Below, piece by piece: positions 3-8,071 of a stretch of DNA of 8,377 nt (position 1 is its first letter; the number at the start of each line of letters is the position of its first letter). Origin of the DNA: Deltaproteobacteria bacterium RBG_13_61_14 (GTDB lineage: Bacteria > RBG-13-61-14); NCBI GenBank assembly GCA_001797815.1, contig MGQK01000091.1, positions 16,984 through 25,360 on the forward strand, in the 5' to 3' direction. Both the position numbers and the translations under genes were made by a program. The notes beneath the pieces were generated by a model. That model did no database searches, was not told where the DNA came from, and saw only the letters and a list, made by a program, of their open reading frames with translations.

Positions 3-914
3 CCGCCCGGCGACCTCGAACCGATTGTCGCGCTCAAGTCGCGCCGGCCTTTTTCCCTGATCCTGGAATTGCCCCGGCCACAGGCCTCCTGGTGGTCCCG
101 GGTTTTAGGCCGGCGAGCGGCCCGCCGATGGTCGGGCCCGGGCCGGAACCCGGCCATCGCCGGATTCGTGGCGCGCAGCCGGAGCGGACGGCGGCTGATC
201 GAAAAAGTCTTCGGCGCCGATCCTTCCCGGGTCTTGTGTTTGAGCCTGGGAGTGGATGCCGAGCATTTCCAGTTCCATCCCGAGGCGCGGGGGTGGTGGC
301 GCGAGCGGCTGGGTTTGGGTCACTGGGAAACCCTTTGCCTTCAGCTTGGCCCTTTCCGCTCCCAGGCCGAGGTGGAGATGATCTTTGCGGCCGGGGGTCA
401 CATGCTGCGGGAGGGTCGGGCCTTGCTCGCTCTGGTCGGCAATGGGCCGTGGACCTGGCGGGAGCTGGTGCGGGAGCAGGCGCGCCGGCTGGGAGTCCTC
501 CATCGGGTCAAGTTCCTGGGGGAGATTCCTTCTCGCGACCTTCCCGGCCTTTACAGCGCCGGGGACCTTGGCTTCGCTTTGGGGGCCGACCCCGCGCTCA
601 TGGCCGCGGCCATGGCCTGCCGGCTTCCGCTCTTGCCTTCGGCCGAAGGCGCGCTGGCCTGGTGGAGAGAAAGGAGCCTGGGATCGGAGGCGCGAGTGGA
701 GGTCGGATCTGGGAACGGACTGCGCCGGCAACTGACGCGCCTGGTCTTGGAACCGAGCCAAAGGCGGCGGCAGGGCGAGGCTGCGCGCTGCTTCATTGAG
801 GCCGAGTGTGCCTGGTCGGCGCAGGCGGAAAAGATGTGTCGGTGGTATCGAGAGCTGGCGGTGATGCCGGCGGCCGGGGAGATGGAGTCAAGGGAAGAGC
901 GGCTGGCGGCTTGA
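3..914 (+). CDS. GT4-like glycosyltransferase, degenerate, 5'-partial
   Basis: The reading frame is open to the left edge (303 visible residues), so the N-terminal acceptor-binding domain lies outside the window. A TTG at 69 has no Shine-Dalgarno sequence and is not the start. What is visible resembles the donor-binding half of GT-B fold GT4 enzymes: a phrase like 'SLGVDAEHF' (the usual '.NGVD...F'), then 'LCLQLGPF', 'ALVGNGP', 'VKFLGEIPSRDLPGLYSAGDLGFAL' split around residues 170-192, and 'AMACRLPLLPS'. The key donor-binding residues are not there. The Arg and Lys of the usual GRLxxxKG become Pro and Ala (GPFRSQA, about residues 116-122), and the EX7E motif is replaced by ADPALMAAAMA (about 195-205), with no Glu at either position. 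The C-terminal helix region is normal in length. It ends 12 bases before the next gene and is probably co-transcribed with it. It may be non-catalytic or have an unusual donor. Family call is fairly sure, function is not. Confidence 0.8.
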   Translation, partial: PPGDLEPIVALKSRRPFSLILELPRPQASWWSRVLGRRAARRWSGPGRNPAIAGFVARSRSGRRLIEKVFGADPSRVLCLSLGVDAEHFQFHPEARGWWRERLGLGHWETLCLQLGPFRSQAEVEMIFAAGGHMLREGRALLALVGNGPWTWRELVREQARRLGVLHRVKFLGEIPSRDLPGLYSAGDLGFALGADPALMAAAMACRLPLLPSAEGALAWWRERSLGSEARVEVGSGNGLRRQLTRLVLEPSQRRRQGEAARCFIEAECAWSAQAEKMCRWYRELAVMPAAGEMESREERLAA

Positions 915-926
915 GGAGGGTGAAAG

Positions 927-1961
927 ATGATTCGATTGGCCGTATTGGGATTGGGAGAACGAGGCCGGCAGAGGCTGCAAACGCTCACCGCCCTGCCGGA
1001 GGTGGCCGTGGAGATGGTCTACGACCGGGACGAGACGGCCCGGCGGTGGGTCAAGGCGCGTTATCCGGAGATCGAGGTGGTCGCGGACCTGCACCGGGTC
1101 TTGGCGGATCTCGCCATCCACGCGGTAGTAGTGGCCCTGCCCGCGGCCGAGCAGCCAGCCCTGGTTTGTCAGGCCATTGCTTCAGGCAAACATTGCCTGG
1201 TCGAATGGCCGCCGGCCGTCTCGCTCGAGGGGCTGAGAGAAATCCAGGCGTTCAGCCGGGAGCGGAAGCGCGTGGCGGTCATCAGCTTGCCGCTCCTGTT
1301 TCATCCGGCCGCGGTCCGGGCCAAGGAGCTGATCGAGCGGGGCGACCTGGGCTGGGTATTTTATGTCTCGGCCATTCATCACCGGCCGGCTTCGTTTCTG
1401 GTGGATCAACATGTGACCTGGAGCCTGGCCTACGAGGAGGTTTCCCTGGCCCTGTTCCTGCTGGGGGAGACCCCTCGCCGGGTCCGGGCCACGGGTTTTT
1501 ATTTCTTGAACCATCGGGCGGACACGGTGTCGCTCCATCTCGAGTTCCTTTCCGGCCGCCACGCCCTGGTGGAGGTGAGCGGCCTGGGTGCGGAACCGTC
1601 CCGCTCCTTTTCGGTGGTGGGTTCCAAACGGTCGGCGCGGTTGGACCTGCTGAGCGCCCAGGCGCCCCTGGCCCTGCACACTCCCCTCCGGGAAGGGGAA
1701 ACGGAGGCGCTCGGGAGCAATCCGTGGGCGCTGGAGACGCGCTGGCTGAGCTTGCAGGCGGTGGCTGCGCTCCAGGAAGAAACCCAGCATTTCCTGGAGT
1801 GCATCGGCCAGGGCCGAGCGCCCCTGGCCGACCTCGGCCGGGTCGAGGATCTGCTCCGGGTGCTCCTGGCCGCGGACCTCTCGCTCCGCTACGACGGCGC
1901 GCACGTGGACGTGGCCCGGCAGTCCGTGCAAATCCCGATGGGTTGGCGCGCCGCCGCCTGA
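927..1961 (+). CDS. Gfo/Idh/MocA-family oxidoreductase-like protein, catalytic residues replaced
   Basis: A 344-residue protein of normal length for the Gfo/Idh/MocA family, whose members oxidise or reduce sugars and nucleotide sugars with NAD(P). The ATG at 927 is chosen because GAGGAGGG lies at 913-920 and the Rossmann motif starts at once (GLGERG, residues 8-13). Family phrases follow: 'VVVALPAAEQ' near residue 70, 'ASGKHCLVEWP' at 85-95, and 'LAYEEVSLALFLLGETP' at 167-183. In active members the second phrase reads EKP, with a catalytic Lys, and the third reads 'PHD', with His and Asp. Here these are Trp94, Glu170 and Glu171. The C-terminal alpha/beta domain looks complete. It could bind a nucleotide or sugar without normal redox chemistry, or use different residues. 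It sits between a degenerate glycosyltransferase and a degenerate HAD protein, gaps 12 and 11 bases. Fold assignment is strong; activity is doubtful. Confidence 0.88.
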   Translation: MIRLAVLGLGERGRQRLQTLTALPEVAVEMVYDRDETARRWVKARYPEIEVVADLHRVLADLAIHAVVVALPAAEQPALVCQAIASGKHCLVEWPPAVSLEGLREIQAFSRERKRVAVISLPLLFHPAAVRAKELIERGDLGWVFYVSAIHHRPASFLVDQHVTWSLAYEEVSLALFLLGETPRRVRATGFYFLNHRADTVSLHLEFLSGRHALVEVSGLGAEPSRSFSVVGSKRSARLDLLSAQAPLALHTPLREGETEALGSNPWALETRWLSLQAVAALQEETQHFLECIGQGRAPLADLGRVEDLLRVLLAADLSLRYDGAHVDVARQSVQIPMGWRAAA

Positions 1962-1972
1962 AAGAAGAGACC

Positions 1973-2668
1973 ATGGGCTTCCGCCAGATCTTCATCGCGC
2001 TCGACGGCCCGGTCCTGGACCGGTCGGCCGGCTACTTTGCTCTGTTCCGCGAGCTGATGCAGGAATTTGAGTTTCCTTGCCCTCCCTGGCCGCAGTTTGC
2101 CCTCTCCTTTCAAAAGGGTCTTTCGCTGCGAGCCTTGCTGCCGGCGAGGTGGCCGGCCGCTGTGGAGGAGAAGTTGATGGAGCAGTGGGAAGAGCGCCTG
2201 GAAGAACTGGAGGCAGGTGGAGGCGATCGGGTCTGGCCGGAGGTGCCCTCGGTCCTTTCGACCTGGTCCCGGCACGCCTTCCTGGTCCTGGTCGCGCGCC
2301 GGCGCGCTCTGCACCAGGTGCTCGGGCAGGTAGATGCCCTGGGCTTGCGGCCGTTTTTTCGGGTGATCGTGCTTTCCAGCCAGTGGCACTGGCCCGATGC
2401 GAGGCTTTGGAGCTCGCCCGCGCCTGAATCCAAGAACAGCTTGTTGGTGGCCGGTCATCCCTGGGAACTCCAGAGCGGCAAAGCCCGCGGGCTCATCACC
2501 GCGGCAGTGACCGCCGGCCCTTTTCCGCTCTCCCAGATCCTGGCCGCCAAGCCGGATTATGTCTGGTCCCGACTCCGGGAAGGCAATCCCGTGGTCCGGG
2601 AGCCCGGGCGCCGGGAAGCTGAGCTTCCCCCAACTCCCCGGGCGTTCGCCGTCGCAGGTGGCCGATGA
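1973..2668 (+). CDS. HAD-superfamily phosphatase-like protein, nucleophile missing
   Basis: A 231-residue protein starting at ATG 1973, 11 bases after the previous stop, behind the purine-rich GAAGAGA (1964-1970). The frame is open much further upstream, but that extension only overlaps the oxidoreductase. It resembles HAD hydrolases (phosphoglycolate phosphatase-like) of the type that begin 'FxDFDGPILD'. Here residues 6-16 read IFIALDGPVLD, so the nucleophilic first Asp is Ala9, while the second Asp (Asp11) is kept. Motif II 'LVLVT' becomes LVLVA (Ala108 for Thr/Ser). Motif IV 'GDTxxD' becomes AGHPWE (160-165), losing the first Asp and changing the second to Glu. The flanking scaffold is well kept: 'SGKARGLITAAVTAG' (168-182) and 'KPDYVWSRLREG' (193-204). 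I see no motif III Lys in the usual place. Phosphatase activity is unlikely. The last ~25 residues are Pro/Arg-rich. Its stop overlaps the next start as ATGA, suggesting translational coupling. Confidence 0.8.
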   Translation: MGFRQIFIALDGPVLDRSAGYFALFRELMQEFEFPCPPWPQFALSFQKGLSLRALLPARWPAAVEEKLMEQWEERLEELEAGGGDRVWPEVPSVLSTWSRHAFLVLVARRRALHQVLGQVDALGLRPFFRVIVLSSQWHWPDARLWSSPAPESKNSLLVAGHPWELQSGKARGLITAAVTAGPFPLSQILAAKPDYVWSRLREGNPVVREPGRREAELPPTPRAFAVAGGR

Positions 2669-4170
2669 GCGGGCTCGAGCTTTCACGATGGAATGTCCTC
2701 AGTGGGGGCGAGGGACGGCGGGTCCTGGCCCTGGCGCTCGGGGGCGGGAGCTTGGCCGGGTGCTTGATCCTCTACCATCACGCGCTGGGAGGAATCCTGC
2801 TCCTCTTGCCCCTGGCCGCCATCCTCATCGCGGACCCGCGGCGTTTCCTCCCGGCCGGCCTGATCTTCCTGGCCGTGGAGACGGTCATCCTGAAATACGC
2901 GCCGGCGCCGCTCACGATCCCGATCCGCTACGCGGTGGAAAGCGCCACCGTGGCCTTGGCCTTGCTCACGGTGGCCGGAAAAGCGCTGCGGGGGGAAGTG
3001 CCCCGCCGGACGCCGATTGATCTGCCGCTGCTGTGTTTCCTGGCCACGGTCGCGGTTTCCGCGGCCATCAACCACGTGCCCGGGGTGGTGGCCGCGGCCG
3101 GCGTGAAAAACCTGCTGCGTTTCGTGTTCCTGTTTTACCTGGCGGTCCAGTTGGACTTTTTTCCCCGGGACCTCCGCCGGCTGTTAACGGTCCTTTTTGC
3201 GGTGGCCGCGGCGGAGACGCTGTTTTGTTTGTTCCAACCCATTCTCGGAGTCCGGCTTTTGGATTTCCTGCGCCCGGGCGAAGTGATGGTGGGGGGAATC
3301 CTGCTGCGCGCCGGGGAGGTGGTGGAACAGACGCCTTTTTCCAAGGCCTTCGGCACCATGGGACGCTACAATTACCTGGGCAATTACCTGGCCTTTGCGC
3401 TTTGCCTGGGGATCGCCCCGGTCGCCCTGGGCGCCCGGACCCGAACCCGCTTCGCGCTCCTCGCCTTTCTCGGCCTGGGCCTCTTTCTCACGTCCTCGCG
3501 CATGTCCATCCTCGGCCTGGGCCTGGGAGTAGCCTGGATGTTCCTGCGCGGTCAAAAGCGCTGGCCGCTGCTGCTCCTTTTCGGGTTGGTCCTGGCCCTG
3601 GCCCTCGAGTTTTCCCGGGTCCGGCTCCTTGATTTCGCCGGCGGCGAGACCGGCGCCAGCGCCCGCGACCGTTTCTTCGTCATATACACTCCGGAATACA
3701 GGGAGCAAAGCACGCGCTGGCACACCCTGACCACCATCCTGCCCGCGTTGTTGCAGCACTCGCCGCTTTTGGGGCTGGGCAGCGGGACGATTGCCAGCGA
3801 CGCCTTGAGCATTTTTCCGGAGCAGGATCGTTCGCGGGAGCTGGGGATCGCACCCTATTTCATCACTTGGCTGCCGGACGTGGGCGTGGCGGCGATGATC
3901 GGTCAGTTCGGGCTTTTGGGCACCGCCTGCCTGGGCTGGATCTTGCTCCGCCTGTTCCGGCTGGCCTCGCGGCTGGTCAAGCAGAGTCCTCGCCCGGAGG
4001 TGCGGGCGCTCGGGCTGGGGGTGGCGGGGATCATCCTGGTCATGGCCTTCATCAACCTGCCGGGTTACGCCTTCAATTACCGGGTCCCGGCTTACACGTT
4101 CTGGCTGATGACCGGGGTGATGGCGCGCCTGGCCCAAGCGGAGGAGGGGGACCGATGCGAATCCTCTTGA
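2665..4170 (+). CDS. O-antigen ligase/polymerase-like integral membrane protein
   Basis: A 501-residue protein with about 12 hydrophobic segments, roughly residues 20-39, 40-56, 62-78, 90-108, 119-135, 148-163, 172-192, 236-258, 262-278, 282-314 and three after 403. It has one long hydrophilic loop at about 318-402. This is the architecture of the Wzy_C/WaaL superfamily, which polymerises lipid-linked repeat units or transfers glycans on the outer face of the inner membrane. Family-like phrases are 'GTMGRYNYLGNYLAF' (230-244), 'LFLTSSRMSILG' (273-284, Arg279), 'STRWHTL' (349-355, Arg351) before 'PLLGLGSGT', and 'LPDVGVAAMIGQFGLLG' (403-419). The loop lacks the 'HN' often seen before that last phrase; here it reads 'ITWLPDVG'. 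Sequence alone does not separate polymerase from ligase. The start overlaps the previous stop (ATGA, 2665-2668), and its own Shine-Dalgarno is weak, consistent with coupling. It overlaps the next gene by 16 bases. Confidence 0.9.
   Translation: MSGLELSRWNVLSGGEGRRVLALALGGGSLAGCLILYHHALGGILLLLPLAAILIADPRRFLPAGLIFLAVETVILKYAPAPLTIPIRYAVESATVALALLTVAGKALRGEVPRRTPIDLPLLCFLATVAVSAAINHVPGVVAAAGVKNLLRFVFLFYLAVQLDFFPRDLRRLLTVLFAVAAAETLFCLFQPILGVRLLDFLRPGEVMVGGILLRAGEVVEQTPFSKAFGTMGRYNYLGNYLAFALCLGIAPVALGARTRTRFALLAFLGLGLFLTSSRMSILGLGLGVAWMFLRGQKRWPLLLLFGLVLALALEFSRVRLLDFAGGETGASARDRFFVIYTPEYREQSTRWHTLTTILPALLQHSPLLGLGSGTIASDALSIFPEQDRSRELGIAPYFITWLPDVGVAAMIGQFGLLGTACLGWILLRLFRLASRLVKQSPRPEVRALGLGVAGIILVMAFINLPGYAFNYRVPAYTFWLMTGVMARLAQAEEGDRCESS
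4141..4150 (+). promoter_or_regulatory. Ribosome binding site for the 4155 gene, inside the upstream gene
   Basis: GAGGAGGGGG ends five bases before ATG 4155. It fixes that start even though the frame stays open upstream to about 3867; the upstream stretch merely overlaps the membrane-protein gene in another frame. Confidence 0.7.
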
Positions 4171-5471
4171 TCAACAAGTTTTTCTTTGGGCTGGGCGGGA
4201 CCGAGACTTATCTATTCGAAATCCGCGAGGCCTTGAAAAAAGCCGGCCACCAGGTGGCGGAATTCGCCATGCGCCATCCGAAGAATCGCCCGAGCGAGTT
4301 TTCCGACTATTTTGTGCCGGAGCTGAACCTGGAACCGGCGGAGTTGAGCTTTTGGGACCAGGTCCGCACCGGAGGGAAGGTGATCTATTCCCGGGAGGCC
4401 CGGCGCCGGCTGGCCCGGCTGATCCGCGACTTTCAACCGGACCTGGCCCACCTGCACAACATCCACCGCCAGTTGACGCCTTCGATCCTGTTCGCCCTGC
4501 ACCGGGCGCGCGTCCCGATGGTTTGGACCTTGCACGACCTCCAGCTCGCCTGCCCCAACCATATGATGTTCGACCCGGAAGAGGAAGTGATCTGCGAAGC
4601 CTGCCGGGGCAGGAAATATTACCGGGCCATTTCCCGCGAGTGCATCAAAGGCTCGCCCCTGGCCAGCGCGGCCGGCGCGCTGGAGAGCTATTTGTATGCG
4701 GCCTTGGGCATCTACCGCCACTGGGTCACCTTATACCTGAGCCCCAGCCAGTTCCTGCGCAACCTGCTCCGGGAAGAAGGATTTCCTTCCTCACGCCTGG
4801 TGCATCTTCCCAACTATGCCGATACCGACCGGATCCGGGCCCAGTTCGGAGGCGAGGGCTACGGGCTCTTTGCCGGCCGCCTCTCGCCGGAGAAGGGGCT
4901 GCATACCTTGCTCAGCGCTCTGGCCCGGGTGCCGGAGCAGCGCTTCTACATCCTGGGCGCCGGGCCGCTCGCCTTCGAGCTGCGCCGGCGGGCGGATCAC
5001 CTGGGTCTCAAGCAGGTGCGGTTCCTGGGGCGCCTGAGCGGGGCCAACTTCGAGACGATGCGGCGCCAGGCCTCGTTTGTGGTGGTCCCGTCCGAGTGCT
5101 ATGAGAACTGCCCCTTCTCGGTGCTGGAAGCTTTTGCCGCGGGCAAGGCGGTGCTGGCCAGTCGCATCGGCGGCATCCCGGAGCTGGTGCGCGACGGCGA
5201 GACCGGGTTCCTGTTTCCGCCGGGCGATGCCGAGGCTTTTGCCGCGGGCATCCGCCGTCTGGCCGAGCACCCCCGGGAAACCGAAGCGCTGGGCCGGCAG
5301 GCCCGCCGGGTGGCGGAAGACGAATACAGCCTGGCCGTGCACCTGGATCGGCTCCTGGCGTATTACCAGCGCGCCCTGGGCAAGAGTGAAGCAGGAAAGG
5401 AGGATGAAGCCGCATGCCCGTCCGCGACGCCGTTCTTGCCGTCAGCTACCGATGCAACGCACGCTGCCTGA
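4155..5471 (+). CDS. GT4 glycosyltransferase with a Cys-rich insert
   Basis: A 438-residue retaining GT-B glycosyltransferase that should transfer a sugar from a nucleotide sugar to a growing glycan at the cytoplasmic face. The N-terminal domain opens with MRILLINKFFFGLGGTETY, with the glycine-rich loop at residues 12-15. 'LAHLHNIHRQ' (98-106) and 'WTLHDLQLACPN' (124-135) follow. The donor domain has the Arg/Lys pair in GRLSPEKG (Arg242, Lys247), 'ILGAGP' (266-271), and a full EX7E motif (Glu317 to Glu325 in ENCPFSVLE). Cys133, Cys147, Cys150 and Cys163 form a cluster seen in one GT4 subgroup and could bind a metal; this is inferred. The family core ends near residue 407 ('LLAYYQRAL'). The last ~30 residues are low-complexity, and the final 19 codons overlap the radical SAM gene. 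All catalytic motifs look intact. Donor and acceptor cannot be told from the sequence. Confidence 0.93.
   Translation: MRILLINKFFFGLGGTETYLFEIREALKKAGHQVAEFAMRHPKNRPSEFSDYFVPELNLEPAELSFWDQVRTGGKVIYSREARRRLARLIRDFQPDLAHLHNIHRQLTPSILFALHRARVPMVWTLHDLQLACPNHMMFDPEEEVICEACRGRKYYRAISRECIKGSPLASAAGALESYLYAALGIYRHWVTLYLSPSQFLRNLLREEGFPSSRLVHLPNYADTDRIRAQFGGEGYGLFAGRLSPEKGLHTLLSALARVPEQRFYILGAGPLAFELRRRADHLGLKQVRFLGRLSGANFETMRRQASFVVVPSECYENCPFSVLEAFAAGKAVLASRIGGIPELVRDGETGFLFPPGDAEAFAAGIRRLAEHPRETEALGRQARRVAEDEYSLAVHLDRLLAYYQRALGKSEAGKEDEAACPSATPFLPSATDATHAA
5397..5403 (+). promoter_or_regulatory. Ribosome binding site for the radical SAM gene
   Basis: AAGGAGG lies 10 bases before ATG 5414 and decides that start. 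The nearer ATG at 5404 is in another frame and directly abuts the motif, so it is not a usable start for this protein. The site lies inside the coding region of the upstream glycosyltransferase. Confidence 0.65.
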
Positions 5472-6403
5472 TCTGTCAGATCTGGAAGCTGAAGCCGGAG
5501 CCCGAGCTCCCGGCAAAAGCCTATCGCCGGCTGCCGGGCTCGCTGCAAGAGATCAACCTGACCGGCGGCGAGCCTTTCCTGCGCGACGACCTGCCCGAGC
5601 TGGTGGCCGCGGTGAAAGCGGCCTGCCCCCGCGCCCGCCTGACCCTGATCTCCAACGGCCTGTTGCCCGAGCGGATCCAGAGGTTACTGCCCGTCCTCCA
5701 CCGGCTCGACCCCAAGCTCGGGCTCGGCTTTTCCCTGGACGGCATCGGCGAGGTGCATGACCGGGTGCGCGGAGTTCCCGGCGCTTACGACCGGGTGCGC
5801 AGCTCGCTGGACCTCGCGCTCCGCCTGGGCTTCCACGACCTCCGTCTCTCCTTTACCCAGAGCCGCCACAACCCGGGCGCGCTCGGCCAGGTCTATGCCC
5901 TCTGCCGGGAGCTTAAGCTCGAATGTTCCGCCACCACGGCCCAGGACTCCCCCCTCTATTTCCGCACCCCGGCCGGGGCGGCTCCGGAAAACGGGCATCT
6001 TCGCCGCGACCTGGAACACGTCATCCGGCAGCAACTCCTGTCGTTCTCGCCCAAGCGCTGGGCCCGCGCCTATTTTTATAGCGGCTTGATCGAATTCGCC
6101 GAACAGCGCCGACGCCGGCTTCCCTGCCGGGCCGGCCGCGATCTGTTTTTCATGGACTCTGCTGGCCGGATCTACCCTTGCCCGATGCTCCCGTGCCGCA
6201 TGGGCAGCCTGGTGGAGCAGCCTTTTGCCGAGCTCTGGCTAAGCCCGGCCGCGAGGCGGGCGCGCCGACAGGCCGGCCAATGCCGGGACGGCTGCTGGAT
6301 GGTTTGCAGCGCGCGCTCGGCCATGGTGCGGCATCCACACCGGGTCCTGGGCTGGGTGGTCAAGCACAAGCTGAAAAGTCATCTGGGCCGGGCGCCGCTC
6401 TGA
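5414..6403 (+). CDS. Radical SAM protein with SPASM/twitch-like C-terminus
   Basis: A 329-residue protein. Near its start is the radical SAM cluster motif CX3CX2C (Cys14, Cys18, Cys21 in YRCNARCLIC), followed by 'NLTGGEPFLRDDL' with the GGEP motif at 51-54, 'LISNG' (78-82) and 'GFSLDG' (105-110), all typical of the SAM-binding barrel. The C-terminal part has extra cysteines: Cys238, then G-x4-C ending at Cys256, then Cys261, and Cys290, Cys294, Cys298. The CX(n)GX4C element matches SPASM/twitch domains, which hold auxiliary iron-sulfur clusters, although the later Cys spacing is not the textbook SPASM series. Twitch enzymes such as BtrN oxidise aminocyclitols, so a sugar-modifying role fits the glycan cluster; this is inference. 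No precursor-peptide gene is nearby, which argues against peptide maturation. It overlaps the upstream glycosyltransferase by 58 bases and is followed by a hairpin. Confidence 0.88.
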   Translation: MPVRDAVLAVSYRCNARCLICQIWKLKPEPELPAKAYRRLPGSLQEINLTGGEPFLRDDLPELVAAVKAACPRARLTLISNGLLPERIQRLLPVLHRLDPKLGLGFSLDGIGEVHDRVRGVPGAYDRVRSSLDLALRLGFHDLRLSFTQSRHNPGALGQVYALCRELKLECSATTAQDSPLYFRTPAGAAPENGHLRRDLEHVIRQQLLSFSPKRWARAYFYSGLIEFAEQRRRRLPCRAGRDLFFMDSAGRIYPCPMLPCRMGSLVEQPFAELWLSPAARRARRQAGQCRDGCWMVCSARSAMVRHPHRVLGWVVKHKLKSHLGRAPL

Positions 6404-6405
6404 AC

Positions 6406-6478
6406 ATGGTTTCTGGCGCCTGGTTTCTGGTGCCTGGTTTCATGAACCAGGAACCAGGAACCAGGAACTGCAAACCAT
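6406..6478. repeat. Long hairpin built of 7-base repeats
   Basis: The 95-base gap between the radical SAM and last glycosyltransferase genes is mostly one inverted repeat. The left arm contains 7-base units (GGTTTCT, GGCGCCT, GGTTTCT, GGTGCCT, GGTTTCA); the right arm contains AGGAACC-type units. The inner stem pairs about 6419-6439 with about 6445-6465 (around 21 pairs, one G-T wobble, one mismatch) across a very tight loop. An outer stem pairs ATGGTTT (6406-6412) with AAACCAT (6472-6478) across a symmetric 6-by-6 internal loop. No T-run follows, so it is not a classical terminator. In the transcript it would form a strong hairpin and could affect mRNA decay or expression of the last gene. 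Confidence 0.85.
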
Positions 6479-6498: not shown

Positions 6499-7623
6499 AT
6501 GAAGATCGCCATGATCGGGTCCCGGGGCATCCCGGTTACTTACAGCGGGATCGAGACGCACCTGAAGGAGATCTGCCCCCGCCTGGTGGGGTGCGGCCAC
6601 CAGGTCACGGTTTACTGCCGGCAGGAGGTGGAATGGCCGGGCGATGAGTTCCTGGGGGTGAAGCTGGTCCGCCTGCCCGCGATCACCAGCAAACACCTGG
6701 AGACGCTCTCCCGCACCACGCTGGCCACCCTGGACGCGCTCCGGCAGCGCTACGACATCGTCCACTACCACGCCTTGGGGCCCGCGGTTTTTTCTTTGCT
6801 GCCGCGATTGCGCGGCGCGGCCGCGGTGGTGACCGTGCACAGCCTGGACTGGAAGCGGGCCAAATGGGGCCGGGCCGCCTCCCTGGCGCTCCGCGGCGGC
6901 GAGTGGGCCTCGGCGCGGTTCCCCAACGCCCTGATCACGGTGAGCCAGACCTTGCGCGAATATTTCCGCCGCAAGTATGGTTTTCTCTCCGAATACATCC
7001 CCAACGGCATCAGCCTGCCCCGGTCCCGGCCCGCCCGGCTGATCCTGGAGCAGGGCCTGCTGCCCTCTCGATACCTCCTTTTCCTCTCCCGCCTCGAACC
7101 CGGCAAAGGCTGCGAATACCTGATCCAGGCCTTCCGCGCCGTCCTCACCGAATTCAAGCTGGTCATCGCCGGCGATGCGGTGCACAGCCGGGCTTACCGC
7201 GATTGGCTCTTGCAACTGGCGGCCGGCGACCCCCGGATCGTCTTCACCGGCTTTGTTCAGGGAGAGTTGCTGGAAGAGCTCCTCAGTCACGCCTACCTGC
7301 TCGTGCATCCCTCGGATTTCGAGGGCATGTCCATCGCCATCCTCGAAGCCATGAGCCATGGCCGGGCCGTGCTGGCCAGCGACATCCCGGAAAACCGGGA
7401 GGTTGTGCGCGAATACGGTTACCTCTTCCCCCAGGGCGACGTGGAGGTTTTAGCCATGACCTTGGCCCGACTGCTCGAGCGGCCGGAAGAGGTGGTCCGG
7501 GTCGGCTGGAAGGCCCGGGACTACGTGGTCCGGGAATTCGATTGGGATACGATCGCCGAGCGGACCGAGGAGGTTTACCAGCAGGCGCTGGAAGAGAAAC
7601 CGCCTCTGCGCCTGGCCGCCTGA
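6499..7623 (+). CDS. GT4 glycosyltransferase
   Basis: A 374-residue retaining GT-B glycosyltransferase. ATG 6499 is chosen because the protein then begins MKIAMIGSRGIPVTYSGIET, the usual opening of a GT4 subgroup related to rhamnosyltransferase-like proteins, and AAGGAA (6485-6490) lies upstream. The frame is open further left only through the repeat hairpin and a shadow of the radical SAM gene. Motifs: glycine loop near residues 10-17, 'IVHYHALGP' (87-95), 'VTVHSLDWKR' (111-120), 'YIPNGI' (166-171), Arg198 and Lys203 in SRLEPGKG, 'VIAGDA' (222-227), and EX7E with Glu275 and Glu283 in EGMSIAILE. All expected donor-binding residues are present. It is probably in the same transcript as the upstream genes but, unlike them, separated by a 95-base gap holding a hairpin. 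Sugar specificity is unknown. Confidence 0.93.
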   Translation: MKIAMIGSRGIPVTYSGIETHLKEICPRLVGCGHQVTVYCRQEVEWPGDEFLGVKLVRLPAITSKHLETLSRTTLATLDALRQRYDIVHYHALGPAVFSLLPRLRGAAAVVTVHSLDWKRAKWGRAASLALRGGEWASARFPNALITVSQTLREYFRRKYGFLSEYIPNGISLPRSRPARLILEQGLLPSRYLLFLSRLEPGKGCEYLIQAFRAVLTEFKLVIAGDAVHSRAYRDWLLQLAAGDPRIVFTGFVQGELLEELLSHAYLLVHPSDFEGMSIAILEAMSHGRAVLASDIPENREVVREYGYLFPQGDVEVLAMTLARLLERPEEVVRVGWKARDYVVREFDWDTIAERTEEVYQQALEEKPPLRLAA

Positions 7624-7628
7624 AAGCC

Positions 7629-7663
7629 GGAGGCATAAGGCATGAGGCCAGAGGCTGGAGGCT
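7629..7663. repeat. Five tandem 7-base repeats (AGGC type)
   Basis: Directly after the last glycosyltransferase stop are five consecutive heptamers: GGAGGCA, TAAGGCA, TGAGGCC, AGAGGCT, GGAGGCT. All share AGGC at the same phase. A related three-unit run (AGGCTGG, AGGCTTG, AGGCCAT) recurs at 7740-7760. Confidence 0.85.
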
Positions 7664-7670
7664 TTAACCC

Positions 7671-7698
7671 GACATACGACATACGATATACGACATAC
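7671..7698. repeat. Four tandem GACATAC heptamers
   Basis: GACATAC, GACATAC, GATATAC, GACATAC in exact 7-base phase, with one substitution in the third unit. A short two-unit TGAACG repeat follows at 7711-7722. No coding frame crosses it convincingly. Confidence 0.9.
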
Positions 7699-7739
7699 CC
7701 TCTTCCAACTTGAACGTGAACGTATCCGAGATCCGCAGA

Positions 7740-7760
7740 AGGCTGGAGGCTTGAGGCCAT
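7740..7760. repeat. Three tandem 7-base repeats (AGGC type, second copy)
   Basis: AGGCTGG, AGGCTTG, AGGCCAT. This is the same unit and orientation as the array at 7629-7663, separated from it by the GACATAC array. Confidence 0.7.
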
Positions 7761-7774
7761 CAGAAAGAGATCAT

Positions 7775-7801
7775 CCGCCGATTCCGCCGATTCCGCAGAT
7801 T
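7775..7801. repeat. Three tandem 9-base repeats (CCGCCGATT type)
   Basis: CCGCCGATT, CCGCCGATT, CCGCAGATT. The related word GATCCGCAGA also occurs at 7730-7739 and, with ATT-like extension, at 7957-7968, so one short word is scattered through the intergenic region. Confidence 0.9.
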
Positions 7802-7816
7802 AAATCGAATTCTTTA

Positions 7817-7852
7817 ACACGGAGAACACAGAGAGCACCGAGAACAAGAAAA
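7817..7852. repeat. Four degenerate 9-base repeats (ACACGGAGA type)
   Basis: ACACGGAGA, ACACAGAGA, GCACCGAGA, ACAAGAAAA in 9-base phase. The last unit is strongly diverged. The stretch is purine-rich on the + strand. Confidence 0.75.
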
Positions 7853-7860
7853 ATATTTAA

Positions 7861-7946
7861 CCACTAAGGCACAAAGTAACGAAGAGGAGAAAAACACAAA
7901 AACCTGACTTTCTTAACTTTAGTGCCTTGGTGTCTTTGTGGTAAAA
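7861..7946. repeat. Imperfect inverted pair of 9-base repeat arrays
   Basis: On the + strand, CCACTAAGG, CACAAAGTA and ACGAAGAGG (7861-7887) form a degenerate 9-base series. The same vocabulary appears inverted at 7920-7946 (TAGTGCCTT, GGTGTCTTT, GTGGTAAAA). CACTAAGGCAC (7862-7872) can pair with GTGCCTTGGTG (7922-7932), 11 positions with one G-T wobble. This is the AT-rich core of the intergenic region. Confidence 0.75.
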
Positions 7947-7982
7947 TTCTTGAATTGATCCGCAGATTCTCTCTTTCCAAAG

Positions 7983-8017
7983 TCTGAAGCCTAAAGCCTG
8001 ATGCCTAAAGCCTCTTC
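7983..8017. repeat. Five tandem 7-base repeats, inverse of the AGGC array
   Basis: TCTGAAG, CCTAAAG, CCTGATG, CCTAAAG, CCTCTTC. Read on the minus strand the unit is CTTTAGG-like, matching the AGGC heptamers at 7629-7663. The two arrays therefore face each other and bound the intergenic repeat region like degenerate inverted ends. Confidence 0.8.
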
Positions 8018-8071
8018 ATTAAGTATTATGTGAAGGGCTTGTTGCCCAAAAGCCATTTGTGACCGAAAAAA

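Follow-up and report, generated by a model that had tools for sequence, protein, structure and literature searches.

In the genome of Deltaproteobacteria bacterium RBG_13_61_14, three adjacent genes of a predicted exopolysaccharide operon encode a GT4-like glycosyltransferase (gene 1), a Gfo/Idh/MocA oxidoreductase (gene 2) and a HAD-type phosphatase (gene 3), each of which has lost the catalytic or donor-binding residues of its family. This loss in three neighbors of different families, proposed in the first-pass annotation, was borne out by motif alignments. The genes lie within a window of 8,377 nucleotides, meaning the whole stretch of DNA analyzed (G000:C91:16984-25360), at the right end of a contig in a 4.7 Mb draft genome of 132 contigs. 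The reading that we favor, with confidence a little short of even, is that the trio consists of lineage-specific pseudoenzymes derived from a working sugar module and retained as folded, non-catalytic partners of polysaccharide assembly. Its main rival is the slow decay of that module.

Judging from its predicted gene content, the locus is a Wzy-type exopolysaccharide operon. On the upstream side, it comprises genes for a Wzc-like chain-length determinant/tyrosine kinase, an O-antigen ligase-like protein and a polyprenyl glycosylphosphotransferase, followed by a region broken by N gaps. It continues with genes 1, 2 and 3, a Wzy-like polymerase, a GT4, a radical SAM/SPASM protein and a further GT4, all on the forward (+) strand, as are all window positions given below. 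The polymerase gene (2665..4170) encodes an O-antigen polymerase/ligase-like protein of the Wzy_C type (PF04932, E 1e-7). The two GT4 genes (4155..5471 and 6499..7623), identified by motifs and profile, had been put forward as canonical internal controls, and their motifs are indeed intact. The radical SAM/SPASM gene located between them (5414..6403) was assigned by profile match, and its best family match, TIGR03961, lies far below the cut-off.

Other features were observed in the surroundings of these genes. Upstream of gene 1, several N runs break a region that seemingly encodes a TPR-like protein (L004:10880-11985), and a TPR gene also adjoins the ligase in a locus of another genome, L156. 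The intergenic segment between the radical SAM gene and the last GT4 gene (6404-6478) carries a palindromic repeat (ctggtttctgg ... ccaggaaccagg) with 29 matches in the genome including itself, and thus belongs to a dispersed repeat family. The A+T-richer region downstream of the operon (7621-8020) contains several short dispersed repeats, for instance around ccactaaggcacaaag and ttagtgccttggtgtctttgtgg, with 48 genome matches including itself.

The three genes had been described as intact, tightly spaced frames preceded by plausible ribosome sites, and this description holds. Stop-free frames extend over positions 3-914 (open at the 5′ end), 927-1961 and 1973-2668, with gaps of 12 bp between the first and second genes and of 11 bp between the second and third. 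The last 4 bp of gene 3 are shared with the following gene, whose ATG lies at 2665. Shine-Dalgarno-like sequences precede gene 2 (GGAGGG) and gene 3 (AAGAAGAG). From the sequence, the start sites, the spacing and the Wzy overlap all look functional. The span of gene 1 needs correction, since the gene does not start inside the window; its probable start is located 178 bp upstream of the window (L004:11807), beyond an intervening run of 108 N.

The window therefore holds the C-terminal 303 residues of gene 1 (3..914), which was classified as a GT4-like (GT-B) pseudo-glycosyltransferase by its profile matches and by motif comparison with 19 GT4s from the same genome. Both profile matches (PF13692, E 5e-5, and TIGR04063, E 6e-9) are below the curated cut-offs. 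Alignment with GT4s was possible over the C-terminal domain and, in part, over the N-terminal domain, which is cut by the gap. In this alignment, the donor-binding Lys, conserved in 95% of the own-genome GT4s, is replaced by A122 (codon at 366..368), the first Glu of the EX7E motif is deleted together with its loop, and the second Glu is replaced by A202 (606..608). Thus, gene 1 has neither the donor-binding Lys/Arg nor the EX7E motif of an active GT4. Two other GT4 homologues of this genome, in loci L112 (G000:C125) and L116 (G000:C81), also depart from EX7E, so that motif loss among its GT4s is not unique to gene 1.

Gene 2 (927..1961) was assigned by profiles, motifs and a structural model to the Gfo/Idh/MocA family as a pseudo-oxidoreductase of the UDP-GlcNAc 3-dehydrogenase-like subfamily. 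It matches PF01408 (GFO_IDH_MocA) above the cut-off (E 2e-14) and PF22725 in its C-terminal domain (E 4e-10), whereas its score against the UDP-GlcNAc 3-dehydrogenase model NF040723 is 78.4, far from the cut-off of 450. The NAD(P)-binding signature is present, with the GxGxxG glycines G8, G10 and G13 and the NAD-type Asp D33. Alignment with subfamily relatives revealed that the EKP motif has become E-W94-P, with a TGG codon (1206..1208) in place of that for the catalytic Lys, and that the His-Asp pair of the PHD motif is replaced by two Glu residues (Y-E170-E171; codons GAG GAG, 1434..1439). Further substitutions affect the GH motif (S-L121), a conserved Arg (H151) and a conserved Asn (R153). 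The equivalent catalytic residues of the related scyllo-inositol dehydrogenase are Lys106, Asp191 and His195, and their Ala mutants are inactive (PMC5969746). The comparison covered 30 relatives from 386 sampled genomes plus the own genome and 11 more from a 359-genome phylum set; the EKP motif, the GH motif and the HD pair are intact in 41 out of 41. Since all of these relatives, and more distant subfamily members as well, keep the EKP Lys, the motif loss in gene 2 is a derived trait.

This divergence extends well beyond the active site. Gene 2 keeps 31 out of the 64 columns conserved at ≥90%, the 33 losses affecting hydrophobic and polar positions alike, whereas in a leave-one-out comparison over the same columns every other member retains at least 84%. 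The conserved positions that are kept include the Rossmann glycines, D33, E93, P95, G142, W165, D199, S218, V231 and G232. Counted by eye, about 18 of 29 polar and about 15 of 35 non-polar conserved columns were lost, a modest excess for which significance is not claimed. The terminal branch of gene 2 (2.04) is the longest in the subfamily, the next ones measuring about 1.04-1.05, and its placement in the tree relative to the subfamily is not firm (support 0.88, with a risk of long-branch effects). Nevertheless, the predicted fold appears intact, with a Rossmann NAD(P) domain and an alpha/beta C-terminal domain: the model reached a mean pLDDT of 88.7 and a pTM of 0.86, and matched Gfo/Idh/MocA dehydrogenases, among them GnnA at a TM of 0.91-0.93 of target length and an rmsd of about 2 Å.

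Gene 3 (1973..2668) was recognized by its motifs and its model as a HAD-type pseudophosphatase with a beta-PGM/phosphoglycolate phosphatase-like fold, its HAD profile matches being weak. All four motifs are altered. Motif I reads IALDGPV instead of FDLDGTL, with A9 (codon GCG, 1997..1999) in place of the nucleophile Asp and P13 in place of the Thr; in motif II the Thr is replaced by A108, in motif III the Lys by S148, and in motif IV one Asp by H162 (codon CAT, 2456..2458) and the other by E165. About 12 residues are absent before motif IV. D11 is the only residue kept from the motif set that characterizes active HAD phosphatases. The model, built on a six-sequence alignment (only five sequences came out of an A3-guided viral search for HAD relatives), has a moderate mean pLDDT of 70.7, and most of residues 183-231 are unreliable. 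It gave 199 PDB matches at E≤1e-3, with VIA Z reaching 14.3 across 185 residues, and with moderate confidence it points to a HAD core with a C1 cap. The open frame that contains gene 3 is 620 codons long and reaches back across gene 2 (806-2668), stops being rare at the local G+C content.

The first-pass annotation had regarded the trio as a conserved cassette, a claim that the searches do not sustain. Neither the trio nor a relative sharing these substitutions turned up in the two genomes of the same taxonomic order, in the 386 sampled genomes, in a scan of near relatives in GTDB, on plasmids or on viral contigs, a genome sampling that is incomplete and in which the host phylum is represented by only three species. 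For gene 2, the scan of near relatives gave one remote match only (21% identity), and the relatives detected in the 386 genomes and in the 359 genomes from the phylum of the best-match genome were at most 36% identical, those inspected being canonical; 156 plasmid matches, compared by identity and not by motif, did not exceed about 31% among the matches listed. Within the 386 genomes, the matches of gene 1 were only about 30% identical to it and invariably have the second EX7E Glu, and gene 3 had weak HAD matches only; no relative of gene 3 was found on viral contigs or plasmids. The flanks of 36 gene 2 relatives, covering from 1.5 to about 9 kb on each side, contained no trio, with one GT4 as a neighbor and one HAD gene located some genes away. 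Homologues with intact motifs, named beforehand as a refuting result, were thus found, and they count against a conserved cassette, whereas the motif losses themselves are unaffected. Within the reach of these comparisons, the trio appears to be lineage-specific rather than a widespread cassette.

Several candidate counterparts were discarded. A second HAD gene of the same genome (C81) does not lie in a comparable operon, and the HAD genes L055 and L056 had a promising cap region, but L055 is outside any sugar operon. The L055 locus of another genome (L055:1483-2831) contains two tandem HAD genes with DLGGT and DVDQT for DLDGT, without a sugar operon. Among the loci retrieved by searching with the Wzy protein, L155 has a GT4b, a Wzy and a glycosylphosphotransferase but none of genes 1-3. 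Locus L156 encodes an O-antigen ligase, a TPR protein, a canonical Gfo/Idh protein with EKP, three GT4s and a Wzy; its Wzy is a remote relative, one GT4b is a strong homologue, and two of its GT4s show EX7E clearly. By their location, the Gfo/Idh and GT4 genes of L156 may be regarded as positional counterparts of the trio genes, without implying orthology.

Whether the three proteins are retained or decaying was approached through their frames and composition. In a neutral simulation of a further 15-40% residue change, with rates assumed rather than measured, drift introduced a mean of 2.3-10.9 stops into the trio, the probability that all three genes stay free of stops ranging from 0.09 to less than 0.001, and at least 10 indels would be expected in addition, assuming one per 10-20 substitutions. 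This agrees with the earlier argument against simple neutral decay, which fits poorly. Since the frames would probably not have survived such drift, retention of the proteins is the likelier case; as the searches yielded no orthologue for gene 1, 2 or 3, selective retention is argued from the open frames only. On the other side, GC content at codon position 2 (GC2) in gene 1 is 0.558, compared with a mean of 0.451 in the 19 own-genome GT4s (z +4.0), with a Trp content at z +4.4, and GC2 in gene 3 is 0.51, compared with 0.43 in one canonical HAD of the same genome. Synonymous codon scores were 0.18 and 0.19 for genes 1 and 3 and 0.29 for gene 2, most other genes tested falling between 0.28 and 0.45. 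In genes 1 and 3, composition and codon bias thus show signs of a weakened-constraint pattern under G+C pressure. Taken together, open frames and weakened constraint suggest that the proteins are kept under demands looser than those for an active enzyme.

Motif loss is rare among the relatives compared, being absent from the 41 gene 2 relatives and restricted to a small minority of the own-genome GT4s, so that independent loss in three neighboring genes is unlikely. These samples were chosen by similarity and the window by the reader, and no probability is attached to the coincidence. A shared cause, either a common function or a common relaxation, is the better reading.

A common relaxation would take the form of slow co-decay, in which one step of a dispensable sugar-modification module was lost and selection then slackened jointly on all three genes, high G+C making stops rare so that open frames persist for a time. 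The GC-rich residue shift and weaker codon bias of genes 1 and 3, the loss of half of the conserved columns in gene 2 along with its long branch, the local rarity of stops illustrated by the extended frame of gene 3, and the presence in L156 of intact GT4 and Gfo/Idh enzymes flanked by ligase and Wzy would all be accounted for. However, the divergence looks too deep for neutral drift to have left three genes without stops or frameshifts, key codon changes need two base substitutions (AAG to TGG; CAC to GAG), gene 2 models as an intact fold, and start sites and couplings look functional. On balance, we consider co-decay unlikely, while giving it real weight.

Two further explanations appear less probable. 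The folds could have been turned to new chemistry with other residues, such as E170/E171 in gene 2, a view consistent with the preserved folds, the charged pair at the HD position and the retained NAD signature; migrated catalytic residues are also known in apparent pseudoenzymes, as passages of PMC10211241 describe. Such neofunctionalization is nevertheless improbable, since no catalytic set can be named either for gene 1, which lacks the donor loop, or for gene 3, which lacks the nucleophile, the motif II-IV residues and about 12 residues. An assembly or sequencing artifact might be suspected from the several N gaps upstream on the contig, one of them inside gene 1. However, genes 2 and 3 and the read part of gene 1 are N-free open frames with a coding-type codon pattern, and the lost residues correspond to whole-codon changes, making an artifact very hard to credit.

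Under the favored reading, retention as non-catalytic partners, a GT4 transferase, a Gfo/Idh/MocA sugar oxidoreductase and a HAD phosphatase would have formed an ancestral module inside the Wzy-type exopolysaccharide operon, and all three would have lost catalysis while staying on as folded proteins. Gene 2 might then serve as a subunit that binds NAD(H) or forms oligomers, gene 1 as a GT-B partner to one of the two active GT4s, and gene 3 as an accessory subunit. We infer that genes 1-3 are translated, that their products bind ligands or one another, and that they act as partners. A stronger version, in which the trio was built as a unit into one dedicated non-catalytic complex with a scaffolding or gating role in polysaccharide assembly, and perhaps with gene 2 as its NAD(H) sensor, seems doubtful; if true, a whole enzyme module would have turned into a regulatory module.

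Known systems resemble parts of this arrangement. Gene 2 shares with the GnnA/NF040723 subfamily (PDB 7bvj) the two-domain fold, GxGxxG and D33, at about 30% identity with the wider subfamily, and differs from it in the replaced EKP Lys, GH His, conserved Arg and Asn, and HD pair. Gal80 has a Gfo/Idh/MocA-type fold and binds NAD(P), and is a regulator rather than a sugar dehydrogenase; it is a eukaryotic transcription regulator, unlike the bacterial gene 2, and the likeness is one of description only. Gene 1 can be aligned in its C-terminal and partly in its N-terminal domain with GT-B enzymes of the GT4 family (TIGR04063/TIGR03088 and the two GT4s of the window), but lacks the donor Lys, both EX7E Glu residues and the loop of the first, every profile score being below cut-off. 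Gene 3 shares its modeled fold and D11 of motif I with C1-cap HAD phosphatases such as beta-phosphoglucomutase and phosphoglycolate phosphatase, but has lost the nucleophile Asp, the motif II Thr/Ser, the motif III Lys and the motif IV acidic pair. Passages of pseudoenzyme reviews describe partner and scaffold roles, and EryCII with EryCIII is a precedent for a non-catalytic partner in glycosylation (PMC3391682). In the GtfA-GtfB pair of serine-rich repeat adhesin glycosylation, encoded in one cluster, a GT-family protein is the chaperone-like partner of the active transferase (PMC6973325). By analogy, gene 1 may work likewise; GtfB, however, binds a protein acceptor and interacts via DUF1975 (PMC6973325), so that its likeness to gene 1 is a lead only, and the pair has no counterpart to genes 2 and 3.

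Lone pseudoenzymes accompanying active relatives are a familiar finding, whereas a run of three from three unrelated families is out of the ordinary. Should selection be keeping the trio, the locus would illustrate in compact form the conversion of an entire metabolic module to a non-catalytic role; should the genes be decaying, they would capture the coordinated loss of a module at a stage when its frames are still open. Either way, up to three enzymes would be attributed to this genome in error by automated annotation.
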